Source of the DNA: an uncultured Desulfobulbaceae bacterium
Lineage (GTDB): Bacteria > Desulfobacterota > Desulfobulbia > Desulfobulbales > BM004
Assembly: GCA_947259115.1 (NCBI GenBank)
Contig: CAMYKS010000021.1
Location: 40,550-104,549, forward strand
Length of the DNA stretch: 64,000 nucleotides
Direction: 5' to 3'
Shown here: piece by piece, positions 683 to 10,951 of the stretch
Layout: each line of letters begins with the position of its first letter
Position numbering within the stretch: the stretch's first letter is position 1
The notes under the pieces: model-generated
What the model was told of the DNA's origin: nothing
Databases searched by the model: none
What the model saw: only the letters and a program-made list of their open reading frames with translations
Made by a program: the position numbers and the translations under genes

Positions 683-1333
683 GTGGTTGAAGGAACCGGG
701 CAGCTATTTCCGGTGCCTTCCGCTAAACATAACATAAGAGGGGCCGCTAATTTGAACCTTACCTCATTTTTTGCCAATAAATGTTTTGCCTATCTCCTCA
801 AGTGTGATTCTGACCGGGAGAATGGAAATTATCACACTTTTCAGCAACGAACATCCAGCAAGAACTCCTCATCACACATTACTTTTTCTCCACCATGGTC
901 TGTTAGCACAGATCTATTCGAAACACTGTGCAACGGCTGCGGAGATTGTGTTTCTCACTGCGAAAACAACATCCTGATATTAAAAAAAAATGGTTGTCCG
1001 GGGGTTGACTTCGCGAAGGGAGCCTGCAGTTTCTGCGGGGCCTGTGCGAAAAATTGCCCCACAGGAGCGTTACGTTATGGGCCTGAAGTTTCACCCTGGG
1101 GCCTTCGCGCTTTTATTACCAGCAAGTGTCTGATGAAGAACAGGGTTCTGTGCAGTATCTGTGTTGAACAATGCGATAAAGAGGCAATTATTCTTGCCAA
1201 GGTAATTCATAAAGATAAGTCCCCTGAAATCCTGGCAGCAGAATGTGATGGCTGTGGTGCCTGTTTTGAAGCATGCCCTGCAGATGCCATTGCCTTTGAG
1301 GATAATAAACAAAAGGTAAATACCAACAGATGA
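683..1333 (+). CDS. napF: NapF-like polyferredoxin
   Basis: Iron-sulfur protein of the periplasmic nitrate reductase cluster. NapF proteins are cytoplasmic and are thought to act in maturation of NapA. The C-terminal 135 residues hold four Cys clusters in order: CNGCGDCVSHC, CSFCGACAKNC, a NapF-type pattern around CSICVEQC, and CDGCGACFEAC. The PPWS motif just before the first cluster is also typical of NapF. The ORF start is a GTG after AGGCAAGAAGG. It leaves about 80 residues before the first cluster, longer than usual, so the true start may lie further in. The gene is 9 bases upstream of napD, in one operon. Confidence 0.82.
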   Translation: MVEGTGQLFPVPSAKHNIRGAANLNLTSFFANKCFAYLLKCDSDRENGNYHTFQQRTSSKNSSSHITFSPPWSVSTDLFETLCNGCGDCVSHCENNILILKKNGCPGVDFAKGACSFCGACAKNCPTGALRYGPEVSPWGLRAFITSKCLMKNRVLCSICVEQCDKEAIILAKVIHKDKSPEILAAECDGCGACFEACPADAIAFEDNKQKVNTNR

Positions 1334-1342
1334 GGTCATGCA

Positions 1343-1573
1343 ATGAACATTTCCAGCATAATTGTCCAGACATATCCGGAGAGATCGGCCGCTCTGCAGG
1401 GTGAACTTACTGCTCTTCCCGGCGTGGAAATACATGCAAGCAAAGAGGATGGAACAATAATCATTACCGTGGAAGATACACCAGAGCAAGCACCCGCACG
1501 TACACTGATGGGTGTTCAGAACCTGCAGGGAGTACTTTCTGCTTCCATGGTCTATAACTACAGTGACGAGTAA
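1343..1573 (+). CDS. napD: NapD, NapA signal-peptide-binding chaperone
   Basis: This 76-residue protein matches NapD in size and pattern: an N-terminal ISSIIVQTYP strand, a central GVEIHASKEDG turn, and a second half with TLMGVQNLQGVLSASMVY. NapD family members bind the Tat signal peptide of NapA and hold it in the cytoplasm until the molybdenum cofactor is inserted. It sits directly before napA, and the gap between them carries a strong AAAGGAGGG site for napA. Confidence 0.9.
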   Translation: MNISSIIVQTYPERSAALQGELTALPGVEIHASKEDGTIIITVEDTPEQAPARTLMGVQNLQGVLSASMVYNYSDE

Positions 1574-1606
1574 TCCATCCAACATAAAGAAAAAGGAGGG
1601 CAAGAA

Positions 1607-4102
1607 ATGAAACTGAACAGGCGAGATTTTATCAAGGCTAATGCCGCCGCCGCCGCTGCCGCAGTTGCCGGCACCCACCTTCCTGCATCCCAGGCGTTTG
1701 GGAAAGAGCAGGATGGTATCCGCTGGGACAAGGCGCCGTGCCGCTTCTGCGGAGTGGGCTGTAGCGTGTTGGTCGGCACAAAGAACGGCAAGGTCGTTGC
1801 CACCCAGGGTGATCCTGATGCCCCGGTGAACCGTGGCTTGAACTGTATCAAAGGCTATTTCCTGTCCAAGATCATGTATGGCAAGGACAGGATTACCAGG
1901 CCTCTGTTGCGCAAAAAGAACGGGAAATATGACAAAAACGGTGAATTTACGCCTGTCTCATGGAAAGAGGCTTTTTCCATAATGGCTGAAAAATACAAGG
2001 AAGCCATCCAGAAGAACGGCCCAACCACAGTCGGTATGTTCGGCTCCGGCCAATGGACGGTCTGGGAGGGATATGCTGCCGTCAAGCTGTACAAGGCTGG
2101 CTTTCTGTCCAACAATATTGACCCTAATGCCAGGCACTGCATGGCCTCTGCTGTGGCCGCCTTCATGCGCACCTTCGGCATTGATGAGCCCATGGGTTGT
2201 TATGATGATCTCGAGTATGCCGATGCCTTTGTTCTCTGGGGCTCCAATATGTCGGAGATGCATCCCATTCTCTGGTCGCGACTCACCAACCGCCGCCTTA
2301 CTGCAAATCATGTCAAGGTGGCAGTGCTTTCAACCTTTGAAAACCGCTGTTTCGAGCTTGCCGATCTGCCGATGGTCTTCAAACCCCAGACAGACATGGT
2401 AATCCTCAATTACATTGCCAATTACATCATCCAGAACAACATGGTGAATCAGGACTTCGTCAAGCAGCATGTCAACTTCCGGCTCGGCAACCCAGACATC
2501 GGCTATGGTCTGCGTCCTACCGACCCCAGGGAAATTAATGCGGTAAACGCCAAGGAACGCAAGAATCAGATCGGTTCTAAAGAGTATTCCTTTGAAGAGT
2601 ATGCCAAGTTTGTGTCCGAGTATACCCTTGATAAGGCGCATGAGATGTCCGGTGTACCCAAGAAGGACCTTGTAGCTTTGGCAGAGCTTTATGCTGACCC
2701 GAAGAGAAAGGTGGTTTCCTATTGGACCATGGGTTTCAATCAGCATACCCGCGGTACCTGGGTCAATCAACTTTGCTATAACGTGCACCTGCTGACCGGC
2801 AAGATATCAGAACCGGGCAACGGTCCTTTTTCACTGACAGGACAGCCTTCGGCCTGCGGTACAGCCCGCGAAGTAGGCACCTTTGCCCACCGGCTGCCGG
2901 CCGATATGGTGGTCATGAACAAGGATCATCGCGATATATCGGAAAAGATATGGAAGCTACCCGCAGGCTCCATCCCCAGCAAGCCCGGCTATCATGCCGT
3001 GCTACAGAACAGGATGCTCAAAGACGGCAAACTCAACGTCTACTGGGTCATGTGCAACAACAACATGCAGGCCGGGCCCAATATGAACGAAGAGACCTAT
3101 CCCGGCTACCGGAATCCAAAGAATTTTATTATTGTTTCAGATCCTTACCCGACTGTGACGGCCATGGCTGCCGACCTTATTCTGCCCACTGCCATGTGGG
3201 TTGAAAAGGAAGGTGCCTTCGGTAATGCGGAACGGAGAACCCAGTTCTTCCGCCAACAGGTTAAAGCACCCGGCGAATCAAAAAGCGATGTCTGGCAATT
3301 GGTGGAATTCTCCAAACACTTTAAAACCGATGAGGTCTGGCCTAAAGAACTGCTGGACAAAAACCCGGAATACAAGGACAAGACTCTCTATGAAATTCTC
3401 TTTGCCAACGGCCAGGTCAACAAGTATCCCTTGAGCCAGCTGCAAAAAGGATATGATAACGACGAGTCGAAAGACTTCGGCTTCTATCTCCAGAAAGGAC
3501 TCTTTGAGGAGTATGCAAGTTTTGGAAGAGGCAAGGCCCATGATCTGGCACCCTTTGAAATGTACCATCAAGCACGCGGCCTCCGCTGGCCGGTCGTTGA
3601 GGGCAAGGAAACCCTCTGGCGCTTCCGGGAGGGATATGACCCGTATGTCAAGGCAGGAGAAAAGATCCGTTTTTACGGCAAAGCGGACGGCAAGGCCGTT
3701 ATTTTTGCCCTGCCCTATGAGCCGCCTGCTGAATCCCCAGACAAGGATTACGATCTCTGGTTGTGCACGGGCCGGGTCCTGGAACACTGGCACTCAGGCT
3801 CCATGACCAGGAGAGTGCCTGAACTGTACCGGGCAGTGCCCGATGCCGTGGTTTTCATGCATCCCAAGGATGCTGAAAAAAGAGGGCTGCAGCGTGGCCA
3901 GATTGCCAAGATTTCTTCCCGGCGCGGCAAGATCACCTGCCCGGTGGAGACCAGAGGCCGCAACAAAATGCCGGAAGGTACGGTATTCATTCCCTGGTTT
4001 GATGCCGGGCGCTTGGTGAACAAGCTTGTACTTGACGCAACCTGTCCGATTTCCAAGGAAACAGACTTTAAAAAAAGTGCTGTCAAGGTCACTAAGGCAT
4101 AA
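1607..4102 (+). CDS. napA: Periplasmic nitrate reductase catalytic subunit NapA
   Basis: Reduces nitrate to nitrite in the periplasm using Mo-bis-MGD and one [4Fe-4S] cluster. At 831 residues it has the normal NapA length. A Tat signal is visible (RRDFIK at residues 5-10, then an alanine-rich stretch). The cluster cysteines are C45, C48, C52 (CRFCGVGC) and C80 (GLNCIKGY). The likely Mo-ligand Cys178 lies in ARHCMAS. The C-terminal molybdopterin-binding domain ([15 protein letters not shown]) is typical of NapA. The start follows AAAGGAGGGCAAGAA. Its cofactor genes (moaA, moaCB, moeA) lie just downstream, and tatB/tatC are near the other end of the window. A formate dehydrogenase was considered, but the napF-D-G-H-B context excludes it. 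Confidence 0.97.
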
Positions 4103-4141
4103 AGAGAAACTTAATAATGCACTTTAAACTATAGAACAAAA

Positions 4142-4915
4142 GTGGACACGCCTAAGAATAACATTGACGAGAAGCAGCAGAAAGGTTCTGCCCGCAGACA
4201 ATTTCTCACCGAAACTGTTCCGGCAGCAACCGGTGCTCTGGTGCTTGCAGTGAGCCTTGGAATGTATCAGAGATCTGCACGGGCACTTCCGGCCTATGCT
4301 ATCAGACCCCCAGGCGCACTAGCTGAAGACAAGTTCCAGGGTGCCTGTCTGCGCTGCGGCCAATGTGTCAGAAGTTGTCCATATGACGTGCTGCGTCTTG
4401 CCAAGCTCGGTGATGATATCCCCACCGGCACCCCGTATTTTATCAGCAGGCAGAATCCCTGCCGGATGTGTGAGGATATGCCCTGCATAAGGGCATGTCC
4501 TTCCGGTGCCTTGGGTCAGAGCCTGCCGACAATATATGAGGCCAGGATGGGTTTGGCTGTCCTTATTGACCATGAAAACTGCCTCAATTATCTCGGGCTG
4601 CGCTGCGATGTCTGCTACAGGGCTTGTCCTCTTATTGACCAGGCGATCACCCTTGATGTCCGGGTGAACCGAAGGAGCGGGGTGCATACGCTTTTCATCC
4701 CTGTTGTCCATTCCAAGTATTGCACAGGCTGCGGCAAATGCGAGCATTCCTGCGTGTTGGACAATGCTGCCATCAAGATCCTGCCCATCGAACAGGCCAA
4801 GGGAGAACTCGGTAAGCATTACCGGCTCGGCTGGGAAGAAAAAGAAAAGGCGGGCGGCTCATTGATTCCTGAACTTCTGAAACTGCCTATCAGGCGACCG
4901 GGGGATACGCCATGA
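4142..4915 (+). CDS. napG: NapG, ferredoxin-type electron transfer protein
   Basis: Periplasmic protein with four [4Fe-4S] motifs that works with NapH in passing quinol electrons toward NapA/NapB. The N terminus has a twin-arginine signal (ARRQFLTETV) and a hydrophobic stretch. Cluster motifs in order are CLRCGQCVRSC, CRMCEDMPCIRAC, CDVCYRAC and CTGCGKCEHSC, as in the NapG/MauM family. The start is GTG with only a weak ribosome site, 39 bases after napA. The stop overlaps the napH start (ATGA), which suggests translational coupling. Confidence 0.93.
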   Translation: MDTPKNNIDEKQQKGSARRQFLTETVPAATGALVLAVSLGMYQRSARALPAYAIRPPGALAEDKFQGACLRCGQCVRSCPYDVLRLAKLGDDIPTGTPYFISRQNPCRMCEDMPCIRACPSGALGQSLPTIYEARMGLAVLIDHENCLNYLGLRCDVCYRACPLIDQAITLDVRVNRRSGVHTLFIPVVHSKYCTGCGKCEHSCVLDNAAIKILPIEQAKGELGKHYRLGWEEKEKAGGSLIPELLKLPIRRPGDTP

Positions 4916-5754
4916 TAAGCAGAATAGCAGGCAGGGAAGCAGTACAGAAAAAGGGCTGGCTTAAGACCCAGAAATGGCTGCTGCGGCGGCGTGTCTCGCA
5001 GCTTGGCATCCTGGGCTTATTCCTGCTTGGCCCTCTTGCTGGGATTTGGATTGTCAGGGGCAGTTTCTCCGCCAGCAAGACCCTGGGAGTGCTGCCGCTC
5101 ACGGATCCTCTGATAATTCTGCAGTCGTTTATGACCGGGCATACAGTTGCGGCTAAAGCCCTGATCGGTGCGCTGATAGTAGTTGTATTTTATGCAATGA
5201 TCGGTGGCAGGGTTTACTGCAGCTGGGCCTGCCCGGTAAACATGATAACCGATGGAGCAGCCTGGCTGAACCGGCGCCTGGATCTTAAAAAAAGTTTAAG
5301 CATGAGCAGGTTGATCCGTTACTGGCTGTTAGCTGCAATTCTGGTGTTAGCTTCATTAACAGGCGCCATTGTCTGGGAGTGGGTGAACCCCATCACCATT
5401 TTTCAGCGGGGCCTTCTCTTTGGTATGGGGCTCGGTTGGTTCCTGGTGGCAGCTATTTTAATTTTCGATACATTTGTGGTCCGTCGCGGTTGGTGCGGAC
5501 ATCTTTGTCCTGTGGGTGCTTTTTACAGTCTTCTGGGATTTGCTTCCATTCTGCGTGTGAAGGCCAAGCAACGTGAACAATGCACCGATTGTATGGATTG
5601 TTTCACCGTATGTCCCGAATCTCATGTTATCCGGCCGGCCCTCAAGGGTGATGCGCACAGCTCACCTGTGATTTTTTCCAATAACTGTATTAATTGTGGG
5701 CGGTGCATTGATATCTGCCCTCAGAATGTATTTCGTTTTTCAAAACGTTTCTAA
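4912..5754 (+). CDS. napH: NapH, membrane quinol dehydrogenase subunit
   Basis: Integral membrane protein of 280 residues with about four membrane helices, typical of NapH. Conserved CSWACPVN and CGHLCPVG motifs sit near the membrane. Two ferredoxin motifs follow in the C-terminal part (CTDCMDCFTVC and CINCGRCIDIC). In known systems NapGH oxidises quinol and hands electrons to NapB. No napC gene is present, so NapGH is probably the sole quinol-linked donor in this operon. It overlaps napG by 4 bases. Confidence 0.93.
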   Translation: MISRIAGREAVQKKGWLKTQKWLLRRRVSQLGILGLFLLGPLAGIWIVRGSFSASKTLGVLPLTDPLIILQSFMTGHTVAAKALIGALIVVVFYAMIGGRVYCSWACPVNMITDGAAWLNRRLDLKKSLSMSRLIRYWLLAAILVLASLTGAIVWEWVNPITIFQRGLLFGMGLGWFLVAAILIFDTFVVRRGWCGHLCPVGAFYSLLGFASILRVKAKQREQCTDCMDCFTVCPESHVIRPALKGDAHSSPVIFSNNCINCGRCIDICPQNVFRFSKRF

Positions 5755-5767
5755 TGGAGGTAGTGAC

Positions 5768-6184
5768 ATGAAAAAGATAATTTCCCCCCTTTTACTGCTG
5801 GTATTTGTTTTTGCTTGTACCACATCCGGGAACAAGGAAGTAAAATCGCTGCGTGGAGATGTTGCCTTACCTGCCGGATCGAATCCCCCGGTAGGCATGG
5901 ACTGGCAGCCTCAAGATTCATCGGTCCCCAGGACGTTTGTGCATCAGCCGCCGCTTATCCCCCATGATGTGGCTGAATATAGTATTACAACTGCGCAAAA
6001 CGATTGTCTGGACTGCCACGGGGAGGAAGATTCTGATGCCCCAATGCCCTTTACGACCCATTATCTTGACCGGGATGGGAAAGCTGCGGATAATGTCTCA
6101 GCCCGCTGGTATTTCTGTACACAATGCCATGTGGGACAGGTGGATGTCCAACCTTTGGTTGAAAATACTTTTAAGACAAAATAA
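5768..6184 (+). CDS. napB: NapB, dihaem cytochrome c subunit of nitrate reductase
   Basis: Electron-transfer subunit that feeds NapA. The two haem sites are CLDCH and CTQCH, and the MPFTTHYLDRDG region and C-terminal tail match NapB. The ATG at 5768 follows a perfect GGAGG site and gives 138 residues; the longer track ORF runs back into napH and is rejected. The signal peptide ends in VFAC, which resembles a lipobox, so this NapB may be lipid-anchored; most NapB proteins are soluble. It is the last gene of the nap operon, and the next promoter begins only about 10 bases later. Confidence 0.93.
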   Translation: MKKIISPLLLLVFVFACTTSGNKEVKSLRGDVALPAGSNPPVGMDWQPQDSSVPRTFVHQPPLIPHDVAEYSITTAQNDCLDCHGEEDSDAPMPFTTHYLDRDGKAADNVSARWYFCTQCHVGQVDVQPLVENTFKTK

Positions 6185-6194
6185 GATTTGGTAC

Positions 6195-6223
6195 TTGACA
6201 TGTAAAAATGGTACACATATAGA
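6195..6223 (+). promoter_or_regulatory. Sigma-70 promoter for the Moco biosynthesis operon
   Basis: TTGACA at 6195-6200 and TATAGA at 6218-6223 are separated by exactly 17 bases. Transcription would start near 6230, just before the first conserved bases of the Moco riboswitch, so the promoter and the RNA element fit each other. Confidence 0.75.
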
Positions 6224-6231
6224 ACGTTAAT

Positions 6232-6331
6232 CAAAACTCCGAGCCAAAAGGTCTACGTCGTAAACGATATGGTCTGAGGCCGATAGGGTGTGGCTGGAAA
6301 CAACCATGCCTCCCGTGTTTGGAAAGGAGTA
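6232..6331 (+). promoter_or_regulatory. Molybdenum cofactor (Moco) riboswitch
   Basis: The leader before moaA shows the conserved blocks of the Moco RNA motif: ACTCCGAGCC at the 5' side, GGTCTGAGGCCGATAGGG in the core, a TGGCTGGAAACAACCA hairpin, and a 3' block GCCTCCCGTGTTTGGAAAGG. The last block closely resembles my memory of the E. coli moaA leader. The 3' strand contains the AAAGGAG that serves moaA, so ligand binding would probably hide the ribosome site (translational OFF). This is recognised by eye; a covariance-model search would confirm it. Confidence 0.88.
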
Positions 6332-6334
6332 GTA

Positions 6335-7354
6335 ATGACAATACGTCATACAAAATCTACAGGCCCCAATTCAGATATAAACCTTCTGGATAATCACGAC
6401 AGACGGATCACTTACCTGCGTTTGTCCATCACCGACCGTTGCAACCTGCGCTGCCGCTATTGCCGCCCGGAAGAGGGAGTCCCCTTTATCCCCCATGAGG
6501 AAATTCTCCGTTTTGAAGAACTGGAGCGTCTTGTATCAATCTTTAGCGCTCTGGGCATAAACAAAGTTAGGTTGACAGGCGGTGAACCGTTTTCCAGGCG
6601 GGGCTTTCTGCCGTTTTTGACAAGACTGAGGAAGGTTGAAGGGATACAGTATCTGCATATCACAACAAACGGTGTAAAAACAAAACGTTACCTTGATGAA
6701 CTTGCGACAATTGGTCTAAACGGTATCAATCTCAGCCTTGACACCCTTGACCACAAGAGATTCTGGAAAATCACCAGACGTGATTATCTTAAAGCCGTTC
6801 TGCAGACTATGCATGGCGTCCTTGCACGAAACATTCCCCTCAAAATTAACAGTGTAGTACTCAAAGACACCTCTGATGATGAGATTATCCAACTGGCCGG
6901 GTTGGCTCGTGATTTCCCCATCACCTTGCGGTTTATTGAAAGAATGCCGTTTTCAGGAACAATGCGGGCAGAAAAGCTTGAAAACGGCAATTTATCAAAG
7001 CGGCTGAAAAGAATTTTCCCGGCCATCGAAGAGTGTACTGCCGCCTTACCGACCACAGCCCGCATTTTTTCGCTGCCGGAATACAAAGGCACAATTGGAA
7101 TCATCCAGGGATATTCAAGACTTTTCTGTTCAACATGCAACAAGGTCCGCATTACACCCACCGGCATGTTGAAAACCTGTCTGTATGACAACGGGGTGCT
7201 TGATTTAAAAAAGATGCTGCGTACAGGATCAGACGATAAGGAAATTGAATCCGCCATTCTCAGTTGCCTGCAAAAACGCTGCATAAACGGCCATGAGGCA
7301 GAACTCCTTGCCAAACGGTCCGCAGAACCGTCCATGGCCAGTATCGGCGGCTAG
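6335..7354 (+). CDS. moaA: MoaA, GTP 3',8-cyclase (radical SAM)
   Basis: First step of molybdenum cofactor synthesis: converts GTP to 3',8-cyclo-7,8-dihydro-GTP. The radical SAM cluster cysteines are C36, C40 and C43 (CNLRCRYC). The second cluster motif CSTCNKVRITPTGMLKTC lies near the C terminus. The protein ends in ASIGG, and the terminal double glycine is needed for catalysis in this family. The ATG at 6335 follows the AAAGGAG inside the riboswitch; the track start at 6290 lies within the riboswitch and is rejected. Length 339 residues, normal. Confidence 0.95.
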   Translation: MTIRHTKSTGPNSDINLLDNHDRRITYLRLSITDRCNLRCRYCRPEEGVPFIPHEEILRFEELERLVSIFSALGINKVRLTGGEPFSRRGFLPFLTRLRKVEGIQYLHITTNGVKTKRYLDELATIGLNGINLSLDTLDHKRFWKITRRDYLKAVLQTMHGVLARNIPLKINSVVLKDTSDDEIIQLAGLARDFPITLRFIERMPFSGTMRAEKLENGNLSKRLKRIFPAIEECTAALPTTARIFSLPEYKGTIGIIQGYSRLFCSTCNKVRITPTGMLKTCLYDNGVLDLKKMLRTGSDDKEIESAILSCLQKRCINGHEAELLAKRSAEPSMASIGG

Positions 7355-7417: not shown

Positions 7418-8341
7418 ATGATTGATGTGAGTCCCAAATTTAACTCATTACGCTATGCCTTAGCCGAGGGGTTTCTCTACGGCAAACAGGAAACCCTGCA
7501 GAGGGTGTTTGATAAAACCGTGCCTAAGGGAGATGTGACCGAGGTTGCGCGGGCTGCAGGGATACACGCGGCAAAGCGCTGTGCAGACTGGATAACCTTC
7601 TGTCATCCGATTCCCCTTGACTGGGTGGAAGTAAAGCTTGAACCGGATAATGATAAAATTAAGGTCAGGGCTGAGGTCCGCTCAGTCTGGAAGACAGGCG
7701 TTGAGATGGAGGCAATCACTGCTGTATCGGCAGCGCTCTTAAATGCCTACGATATGCTCAAACCCCTGGACGATTCCCTTTCCTTCGGTGATATCCGAGT
7801 GGTCAGAAAAAAAGGCGGCAAAAGCGATTTTTCCGATTCTTTTAAAAAGGATTTAAAAACGGCGATCCTGGTATTATCGGATTCCACCCATGCAGGGAAG
7901 AGAAAGGATAAATCCGGTAAAATAATTCAGGAGTTTCTTGCGGATAAACCTGTTCAGGTTGGTTTTTATGAAGTACTCCCCGATGACAAGGAAATAATAG
8001 CAGAAAGGCTGCGGCAACTGGTGGATGCTGAAAAGGTAAAGCTGATTTTTACCACAGGCGGTACAGGTCTGGGCCCCAGAGACGTAACACCGGAAGCCAC
8101 ACTGGCTGTCATTGACCGCTCAGTGCCCGGCATTGTCGAGGCCATCAGGAGCTATGGCAAGGACCGCACCCCCTTTGCCATGCTGTCGCGCGGTGAGGCA
8201 GGGGTCAGGAAGGATAGCGTTATAATCAACCTGCCCGGCAGTTCCAAGGGCGCCGTTGAAAGTCTGCAGGCGCTTTTTCCCGGACTTCTGCACATCTTCC
8301 CCATGATGCAGGGCAAAGGTCATGAGAAAACAAGAAAATGA
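7418..8341 (+). CDS. MoaC-MoaB fusion protein (cyclic pyranopterin monophosphate synthase / molybdopterin adenylyltransferase-like)
   Basis: Residues 1 to about 140 are MoaC, which forms cyclic pyranopterin monophosphate: IDVSPKF start, FCHPIPLDWVEV core, MEAITAVSAALL helix and the KKGGKS end. Residues from about 148 to the end are a MoaB/Mog-type domain with LSDSTHAGKRKDKSG and TTGGTGLGPRDVTPEAT, the family that adenylates molybdopterin. The start follows GAAGGAGAGTGTAACCT. Such MoaCB fusions are known in some bacteria, but separate genes are more common. It overlaps moeA by 20 bases. Confidence 0.93.
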   Translation: MIDVSPKFNSLRYALAEGFLYGKQETLQRVFDKTVPKGDVTEVARAAGIHAAKRCADWITFCHPIPLDWVEVKLEPDNDKIKVRAEVRSVWKTGVEMEAITAVSAALLNAYDMLKPLDDSLSFGDIRVVRKKGGKSDFSDSFKKDLKTAILVLSDSTHAGKRKDKSGKIIQEFLADKPVQVGFYEVLPDDKEIIAERLRQLVDAEKVKLIFTTGGTGLGPRDVTPEATLAVIDRSVPGIVEAIRSYGKDRTPFAMLSRGEAGVRKDSVIINLPGSSKGAVESLQALFPGLLHIFPMMQGKGHEKTRK

Positions 8342-9563
8342 CAAAACCGAAATGATTTCAATCCAAGAGGCGCTGCAGATACTGCAGGAAAATCTGCCGG
8401 AAGCTCGGGTTGATACCGTTGACCTTCCAGATGCCCATGGCAGGTATCTGGCAGAATCCATAGCAGCTCCTGAACCGTCGCCGCGCTATACCAATTCTGC
8501 CATGGACGGCTATGCACTGCGCTGGTCCGATGTCATGGATGCTTCGCATGAAAACCCTGTTACGCTTAAAGTTATTGGTGAAAGCAGGGCCGGACTGCCT
8601 TATGGCAGTGAGATCAACAACAACGAAGCAGTGCATATCAGCACCGGGGCCATGCTGCCCCCCGGGGCAGATACGGTTGTCAGGGTGGAGGATACCCGCA
8701 AGCCGAGTGATGCTGCAGTGGAAATCCTGGCTGTCCGCTGCCAGGGTCAGGATGTGCGCTATGAAGGTGAGGAGTTCTGCTCCGGTGATGAGCTGCTCAC
8801 TGCCGGCACAAAACTTTGCGCCCCCCAGCTTGCTCTTCTGGCCACTATCGGTCAGCAGCAGATAAAGGTTTTCTCCCCTCCCAAAGTCTCAATACTGGTC
8901 ACCGGTTCTGAGTTGGCCTCTGTCGCGGACAAGGAGATTAAATCATATCAGATCCGTGATTCCAATTCCATCATGCTGAAGACCGCTTTGCAGGAGGCAG
9001 GTGCAACAGTGGAATCGTGTAAAAATGTTGTAGATGAACTACAGGCAACAGTTGCTGCAATCAATAAAGCGGTTTCCCAGGGAGTGAATTTTATCCTCTG
9101 CTCCGGCGGCATTTCCGTGGGGGAACACGACCATGTGAAGGAGGCTGCTGAAACAGTCGGGTTTAAAGAGCTGTTCTGGCGGATCAGGCAGAAGCCGGGA
9201 AAACCATTATTTGCAGCGCAAAAGGACTCCACATATCTCTTTGGCTTACCGGGCAATCCTGTTTCCGCTTATATGTGCTTTGCCCATTACATCAGGCCCC
9301 TGCTTTTTACTATGCGTGGGCGGGGCATGACATGGAATACGATCACTGCAGTGGCGGGTGGAGAAATTGCCAACACGGGTAAAAGAACAAATTTTATCAG
9401 GGTGAAACTTGAAAAGAATCAGGGGCAGTTGCCCCGGATTATCGATATCAAAAAGCAGGGATCACACATGTTGAGTTCAATCGTGAACGCTGATGGATAT
9501 ATCATTTTGGAACCTGGCGCAACTGTTCAGCCCGGTGATACGCTAAATGTATTTTTATTTTAG
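8322..9563 (+). CDS. moeA: MoeA, molybdopterin molybdenumtransferase
   Basis: Inserts molybdate into adenylated molybdopterin. The 413-residue length is normal for the family. Visible landmarks are the N-terminal NSAMDGYALR, the TGAMLPPGADTVVRVED block, the MoCF-like domain with TGSEL and CSGGISVGEHDH, the LPGNPVSAYM motif, and the C-terminal barrel domain. The start overlaps the end of moaCB by 20 bases, so the two are probably translated together. Confidence 0.94.
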   Translation: MRKQENDKTEMISIQEALQILQENLPEARVDTVDLPDAHGRYLAESIAAPEPSPRYTNSAMDGYALRWSDVMDASHENPVTLKVIGESRAGLPYGSEINNNEAVHISTGAMLPPGADTVVRVEDTRKPSDAAVEILAVRCQGQDVRYEGEEFCSGDELLTAGTKLCAPQLALLATIGQQQIKVFSPPKVSILVTGSELASVADKEIKSYQIRDSNSIMLKTALQEAGATVESCKNVVDELQATVAAINKAVSQGVNFILCSGGISVGEHDHVKEAAETVGFKELFWRIRQKPGKPLFAAQKDSTYLFGLPGNPVSAYMCFAHYIRPLLFTMRGRGMTWNTITAVAGGEIANTGKRTNFIRVKLEKNQGQLPRIIDIKKQGSHMLSSIVNADGYIILEPGATVQPGDTLNVFLF

Positions 9564-9574
9564 GGAGCAGCAGC

Positions 9575-10009
9575 ATGGCTTATATAGAAGCGGTTTGTCT
9601 AAGTCGTAAGAAAGGAATTGTAAAAAAAGAGCAGGACCAGGTTGTGGTCCGTGAAAATTGGGGCATTGAGGGCGATGCCCATGCAGGAGACTGGCACAGG
9701 CAGATTTCACTGCTTGCCGGCGAGTCCATTGATGGAGTCAAAGAAGTTTTGCCGACCCTTAAGAACGGGGCATTTGCGGAAAATATCATCACCCGGGGAT
9801 TAGATCTGAACAGCCTGAAGATAGGCGACCGGTTGCAGATAGGTGATACGGTCATTCTGGAAATTACCCAGATCGGCAAGGAATGCCACAACAGCGGCTG
9901 TGCCATAAAAAAAGCCACCGGTGACTGCATCATGCCCAGAGAAGGAATTTTTGCCCAGGTAATTCACGGCGGCACCCTGACAAAAGAACAGGAGATTAGA
10001 TTTATTTAG
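9575..10009 (+). CDS. MOSC-domain protein
   Basis: Small stand-alone MOSC (Moco sulfurase C-terminal) protein of 144 residues. GIEGDAHAGDWHRQISLL at the start and GKECHNSGCAIKK toward the end are the family landmarks; the cysteine in the latter is the likely sulfur carrier. MOSC proteins are linked to sulfuration or handling of the molybdenum cofactor. It follows moeA by 11 bases, which supports a role in the same pathway. The exact reaction cannot be read from the sequence. Confidence 0.88.
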   Translation: MAYIEAVCLSRKKGIVKKEQDQVVVRENWGIEGDAHAGDWHRQISLLAGESIDGVKEVLPTLKNGAFAENIITRGLDLNSLKIGDRLQIGDTVILEITQIGKECHNSGCAIKKATGDCIMPREGIFAQVIHGGTLTKEQEIRFI

Positions 10010-10276: not shown

Positions 10277-10304
10277 TTGAAATTGGCGCTCAAATATTTA
10301 TAAT
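10277..10304 (+). promoter_or_regulatory. Sigma-70 promoter for the Spy/CpxP-like gene
   Basis: TTGAAA at 10277 and a perfect TATAAT at 10299 are separated by 16 bases, about 25 bases before the AGAGGAG ribosome site of the next gene. The rest of the 10010-10276 gap is AT-rich, and I see nothing else in it. Confidence 0.55.
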
Positions 10305-10327: not shown

Positions 10328-10951
10328 ATGAAAGACATAAGAATAAAAGTGAAACAGATATTTTTTTTGGTTGGATTCACACTGGCCGCTTTAACCCTGC
10401 ATCCTTTTAAGATAACTGCCGCTTCCGAACCAGAGTATAAATCGAAATATATTGGACAGGAAAAAAGAGATATTAAAAGTTTATCAAATGAAGATATCAA
10501 AGAATTAAGAACCGGAGCAGGCTGGGGCCTGGCGAAAGCTGCTGAACTAAATGGACTTCCTGGTCCTAAGCATATTTTGGAGATGAAAAAAGAGATCGAA
10601 TTGACTGCCGATCAAGAAAAAATGGTAATTGATTTGTACAGGAACATGAATAAAGAGGCTATAGAATTGGGCTATAAACTGATTGAGTATGAGAAGGAGT
10701 TGAATAGTAGATTTGCTGAAAGGAATATTGACGAGAAAATTCTAGATGACTTGCTGGAAAAAATATCAGAAACATACAAAGCCTTACGCTTTACTCATTT
10801 ATCTGCACACCTGAAGACCCCAAGTATCCTGACAGAAAGCCAGATTAACATATACAATAAATTACGAGGCTACTCATCTGCTAATCCTTGTGTGAATATC
10901 CCCAAAGGTCATGATCCGGTAATGTGGCGTAAACATAATAACTGCAATTAA
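10328..10951 (+). CDS. Periplasmic Spy/CpxP/ZraP-like protein
   Basis: A 207-residue exported protein. An N-terminal hydrophobic segment (IFFLVGFTLAALTLHPF) acts as the signal peptide. The mature part is a long helical hairpin with two LTxxQ motifs, LTADQ at 92-96 and LTESQ at 168-172, the mark of the Spy/CpxP family of periplasmic chaperones and metal-stress sensors. It is somewhat longer than Spy itself and has an extra C-terminal tail with HDPVMWRKHNNC. The start follows AGAGGAGAAA. No two-component genes adjoin it. Confidence 0.65.
   Translation: MKDIRIKVKQIFFLVGFTLAALTLHPFKITAASEPEYKSKYIGQEKRDIKSLSNEDIKELRTGAGWGLAKAAELNGLPGPKHILEMKKEIELTADQEKMVIDLYRNMNKEAIELGYKLIEYEKELNSRFAERNIDEKILDDLLEKISETYKALRFTHLSAHLKTPSILTESQINIYNKLRGYSSANPCVNIPKGHDPVMWRKHNNCN

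Follow-up and report, generated by a model that had tools for sequence, protein, structure and literature searches.

A P3-less molybdenum/tungsten riboswitch between the nap operon and moaA in a Desulfobulbaceae-like genome with five such elements

Gene organization and transcription at the nap-moaA junction

The DNA analyzed here, referred to as the window, is a 64,000-nucleotide stretch of a Desulfobulbaceae-like draft genome (4.0 Mb in 73 contigs, 91% complete). A complete periplasmic nitrate reductase operon is followed within the window, on the same strand, by a cassette of molybdopterin synthesis genes, and a structured RNA lies between the two (Table 1). The nap assignments are supported by profile matches to NapF (113 bits), NapD (Pfam, 85.9), NapB (Pfam, 122), NapG and NapH, and by a clear match to NapA (TIGR01706, 1526 bits). 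These matches, together with those to the downstream genes, bear out a preliminary description of the locus in which a switch had been placed between a nap operon and genes for biosynthesis of the molybdenum cofactor (Moco).

Table 1. Positions of the features of the nap-moa region within the window
Feature	Position	Strand	Basis
napF-napD-napA-napG-napH-napB, periplasmic nitrate reductase operon, upstream	683..6184	+	NCBIfam/Pfam
Promoter-like TTGACA-17-TATAGA	6195..6223	+	-35 6/6, -10 4/6; chance ~1%; absent at sister-species locus L035
Moco/Tuco riboswitch aptamer RF01055, P3-less form	6225..6345	+	cmscan 79.2 bits and covariation, 25 sequences
P1 5′ strand ACTCC, partner of the Shine-Dalgarno region	6236..6240	+	Rfam alignment; inner four pairs invariant, 25/25
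P2-P4 junction GGCC-GAT-AGGG, P3 missing	6278..6288	+	Model P3 positions deleted; like linkers in other own and readable class copies
moaA Shine-Dalgarno AAAGGAG in P1 3′ strand	6323..6329	+	Sequence; like geometry in 58/66 class hits
moaA, GTP 3′,8-cyclase, true start ATG 6335	6335..7354	+	TIGR02666 324 bits, cut-off 284
moaC/moaB fusion	7418..8341	+	NF002947 365 bits
moeA	8322..9563	+	MoeA_N, MoCF_biosynth, MoeA_C
MOSC-domain protein, last of the moa cassette	9575..10009	+	PF03473

The same description had proposed that a near-consensus promoter fires just ahead of the RNA. The letters and spacing of this sequence are as reported, TTGACA (6195-6200) being separated by 17 nt from TATAGA (6218-6223). 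Its -35 element is perfect; the -10 element matches the consensus at only four of six positions and lacks the final T, and for that reason it was not listed by a consensus promoter scan of the window. The string occurs exactly only once in the window, is suitably placed for a transcription start near 6230, and a match of at least 10 of 12 positions would be expected in about 1% of random 41-nt stretches of equal A+T content. However, the sequence has not been kept at the nap-moaA locus of the sister species, and no comparable promoter is evident at three of the other riboswitch copies in the same genome (C51, C55 and C71, described below). A local promoter at 6195-6223 is thus plausible rather than proven, and there is a somewhat less than even chance that the moa genes are transcribed from the nap promoter only, with the TTGACA element being fortuitous. 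Since no terminator was found on the + strand between the end of napB (6184) and the RNA (6225), read-through from nap is likely to occur besides any initiation at the local promoter. A direct repeat of TGGTAC (6189-6194 and 6209-6214, 20 bp spacing) overlaps the promoter-like sequence and could be either a regulator site or a chance occurrence. Another promoter-like sequence, TTGAAA-16-TATAAT (11/12), is situated just past the moa cassette (10277-10304), ahead of an ORF at 10328.

An RF01055 aptamer that encloses the moaA ribosome-binding site

The covariance-model search that the preliminary description had proposed for 6225-6340 identifies the RNA as a member of RF01055, the Molybdenum/Tungsten riboswitch family (cmscan, E = 1.6e-17, model positions 1-135), with a score far above the gathering score of 36 bits, and this is the sole Rfam match across the window. 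Members of the family are located ahead of genes for Moco/molybdopterin (MPT) synthesis, transport or enzymes; accordingly, the RNA precedes MPT synthesis genes, here in the order moaA-moaC/B-moeA-MOSC. In an alignment of the window aptamer with 24 relatives, standard pairs occupy 88.5% of cells, compared with 33-48% when the pairing partners are slid relative to one another. The covariation score of 0.262 (0.150 in shuffled alignments) was reached by none of 500 shuffles, compensatory cells number 67 where 29.5 are expected, and changes on both sides are found at 13 pairs. Because covariation exceeds both the shuffled and the slid controls, the RF01055 fold is supported, and chance resemblance to the family can be rejected on the basis of this signal and the cmscan score. 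Membership of the window RNA in RF01055 is therefore real, and the switch itself is an ordinary, textbook example of a family known to lower synthesis of the molybdenum or tungsten cofactor when that cofactor is abundant.

It is very improbable that this copy is a decayed or non-functional relic. Degenerate aptamers do occur in sister genomes (G001:C71 and G006:C138; 29-35 bits), but the window copy scores near the top among class copies and has kept every invariant residue of the junction. Both sister-genome elements fall below the gathering score, appear to be decaying and reside before moaA: the one at G001:C71:1741-1862 (L038; 29.5 bits) carries CTACGAG in place of CTCCGAG, and the one at G006:C138:7295-7411 (L037; 35.4 bits) has lost a recognizable 5′ half.

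The preliminary description had credited the RNA with all conserved blocks of the Moco motif. P1, P2, P4, P5, the junction and the GAAA tetraloop are indeed there, but the P3 hairpin of the model was overlooked as missing: its positions are deleted in the alignment, and the linker between P2 and P4 consists of just three bases, GAT. The RNA accordingly belongs to the P3-less subtype, proposed to respond to the tungsten cofactor (Tuco), rather than to the P3-containing Moco subtype. The P3-less subtype is associated with control of MPT synthesis or tungsten genes, and its position before moaA is compatible with either metal.

The 3′ strand of P1 overlaps the Shine-Dalgarno sequence of moaA, which is followed after 5 nt by the ATG at 6335. 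Four P1 pairs (C6237-G6329, U6238-A6328, C6239-G6327 and C6240-G6326) bury the GGAG against CUCC and are invariant in all 25 sequences, in agreement with the earlier claim that the ribosome site is embedded in the aptamer. Being invariant, these pairs are uninformative by covariation; their constancy fits a double constraint imposed by the aptamer and the ribosome site. Across the class, a MoaA start resides 4-10 nt past a similarly buried Shine-Dalgarno sequence in 58 of 66 RF01055 hits. Because 45 of 56 relatives have an in-frame stop within the aptamer, and the window itself has one 51 nt upstream of ATG 6335, this ATG is taken as the moaA start, and the GTG at 6290 is simply where the earliest start codon falls in a reading frame that happens to stay open. 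The latter start, favored by the longest-ORF rule alone, is rejected by the aptamer stops of the relatives, as had been anticipated in the preliminary description, which considered the annotated start at 6290 wrong.

In E. coli, the ribosome site of moaA likewise resides within P1 of an RF01055 aptamer located directly ahead of the gene, and genetic tests showed that Moco represses its expression (Regulski 2008, PMC2408646). The E. coli RNA differs in having a P3 stem and in being situated behind a stand-alone promoter region regulated by FNR and ModE, whereas the window RNA lies 40 nt behind napB. Energy-based folding of the minimal aptamer predicts pairing of GGAG with CUCC at a probability near 1. 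When longer downstream sequence is included, competing Shine-Dalgarno pairings appear and there is no clear on-state, and thus the free state is not defined by the energy model. Taken together with the E. coli precedent, the geometry leads us to infer, with a probability of roughly 0.87, that the P3-less RF01055 riboswitch represses moaA at the level of translation. In the ligand-free state, P1 would open often enough to give ribosomes access to AAAGGAG. Binding of the molybdenum (or tungsten) pyranopterin cofactor at the P2/P4/P5 junction would then lock the CUCC/GGAG helix and stop moaA initiation, presumably curbing the initial step in pyranopterin synthesis, with a probable effect on the genes translated after moaA as well. 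With a block at the level of translation, and with no terminator between napB and the RNA, moaA could be controlled both on messages running through from nap and on those started at a local promoter, and nap expression would be left unaffected. The earlier suggestion that cofactor synthesis is tuned separately from nap is therefore plausible, in the sense that a translational switch touches only moaA and the genes that follow it.

Five riboswitch-moaA modules of separate ancestry

The genome contains five RF01055 copies (in the window and on contigs C28, C51, C55 and C71), one before each of five full-length moaA genes, and no other protein of the genome reaches the MoaA cut-off. P3 is missing from the four additional copies as well, which have similarly short linkers. 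Upstream of the C28 copy is a NapA-like enzyme with DsrO/DsrP-like subunits. The C51 copy is preceded by the end of a DMSO-reductase-type subunit, a multihaem cytochrome, a TorD-type chaperone and TatA, the C55 copy by the chaperone and TatA, and the C71 copy by TatA after a fragment. The tatA gene is found directly before the riboswitch in three of these cassettes (L006:683-847, L007:3381-3545 and L008:483-662) and, judging by sequence, in several relatives. On the downstream side, a permease of the TauE/SafE family (PF01925) follows moaA at C51, C55 and C71 (in the last case by resemblance only), that is, right after the riboswitch-controlled gene in three of the five cassettes (L007:4726-5490, L006:2010-2774 and L008:1847-2637) and also in several relatives; its frame is split in L008. 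This permease is a candidate oxyanion transporter, for molybdate, tungstate or sulfite.

A tree of 55 riboswitch-linked MoaA proteins places each of the five paralogs on a branch of its own, among relatives that differ from one paralog to the next, and the well-supported branches force five changes. The modules were therefore either gained separately or retained from old duplications, and recent duplication of the cassettes is rejected. Although C51, C55 and C71 are short contigs, mis-binning is not favored, because their tetranucleotide composition does not depart from the spread seen among segments of the window and the C51 MoaA groups with that of a genome from the same genus.

More than two RF01055 copies were found in no other genome among the 258 searched in the class, and elsewhere in the phylum there are up to eight per genome (eight each in G326 and G459). 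Some of those copies are closely spaced and look tandem (G450:C76, G472:C56, G514:C8, G552:C44 and G326:C92). Multi-copy genomes were known previously, with eight Moco RNAs in Desulfitobacterium hafniense and at least 15 in Syntrophomonas wolfei (PMC2408646). Like those genomes, the present one has several aptamers; unlike in them, a separate moaA paralog goes with every copy, and the paralogs are of separate ancestry. It is this arrangement, five P3-less copies on five full-length moaA genes of separate ancestry, that appears new and noteworthy.

Metal specificity of the P3-less form

Moco had been named as the ligand in the preliminary description, and this is not supported as stated, given that P3-less RNAs were tentatively assigned to the tungsten cofactor in the discovery paper. 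Regulski et al. observed in 17 of 19 organisms that RNAs with P3 accompany Moco genes and those lacking it accompany tungsten genes, and on that basis they put forward two specificities (PMC2408646). The E. coli RNA, which contains P3, discriminates between the cofactors, and deletion of its P3 abolished control (PMC2408646), such that the experiment does not directly test the relationship between P3 and metal. Few further papers on the RF01055 riboswitch were found, and none of them directly assays the ligand of a P3-less RNA. The 2008 proposal rests on a correlation across a few dozen organisms. The window RNA provides a test case for this unproven rule, as a P3-less element adjoining nitrate reductase genes in an organism apparently capable of taking up molybdenum as well as tungsten.

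Sensing of the tungsten cofactor in place of Moco would accord with the 17-of-19 correlation and with the absence of P3 from all five of the genome's copies. The genome also encodes candidates for tungsten metabolism, namely a TupA-like tungstate-binding protein (325 bits, the best NCBIfam match, under the cut-off of 400) and two AOR-family proteins, as well as molybdopterin enzymes with an in-frame TGA; WtpA was not found in it. In addition, tupA-tupB is preceded by RF01055 copies in further phylum members (L109, L110, L112 and L121), so that a link to tungsten does exist in some places. However, all five RNAs of this genome front moaA cassettes, two of them behind NapA-type reductases and one behind a DMSO-reductase-type operon, and none of the copies precedes the genome's modA, TupA-like or AOR genes or follows its tup or AOR genes. 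Nor are tungsten markers (counted as TupA-like, WtpA and AOR, with tungsten formate dehydrogenases left out) significantly enriched in class genomes bearing the RNA (36/55, compared with 112/203 of those lacking it; p = 0.22), in a comparison for which no TupA-like hit reaches the curated cut-off, incomplete genomes are numerous and the species are non-independent; in 19 of the RNA-bearing genomes no such marker was found. Furthermore, class and phylum copies with a readable linker all lack P3, so its absence looks lineage-wide, and on our reading such a loss is of no use for naming the ligand of the window copy. On balance, tungsten-specific sensing is less likely than not.

It is possible, at well below even odds, that the absence of P3 reflects relaxed specificity, with the RNA answering either metal form or the metal-free pyranopterin. 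The controlled step is common to Moco and Tuco synthesis, and the genome has both modA and a TupA-like protein; against this reading, the P3-containing RNA of E. coli discriminates. We tentatively propose, and with no great confidence, that the absence of P3 is no mark of tungsten in this lineage and that its P3-less RNAs sense Moco (or both cofactors), each molybdoenzyme operon having its own riboswitch-moaA module. The P3-less RNAs described previously share with the window copy the GAAA tetraloop and a position before MPT synthesis genes, and the present ones differ from them in being attached to a moaA that follows nap or a further operon of molybdoenzyme type, within a lineage seemingly devoid of P3 altogether. 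If sensing of Moco (or both) is correct, one cell would draw its cofactor through five supply lines, each inherited separately and each limited by its own feedback. The five natural P3-less copies within a single genome make the question of specificity accessible to reporters. Two of the enzymes with an in-frame TGA, at L017 and L021, are formate-dehydrogenase-like molybdopterin oxidoreductases in which this codon probably specifies selenocysteine.
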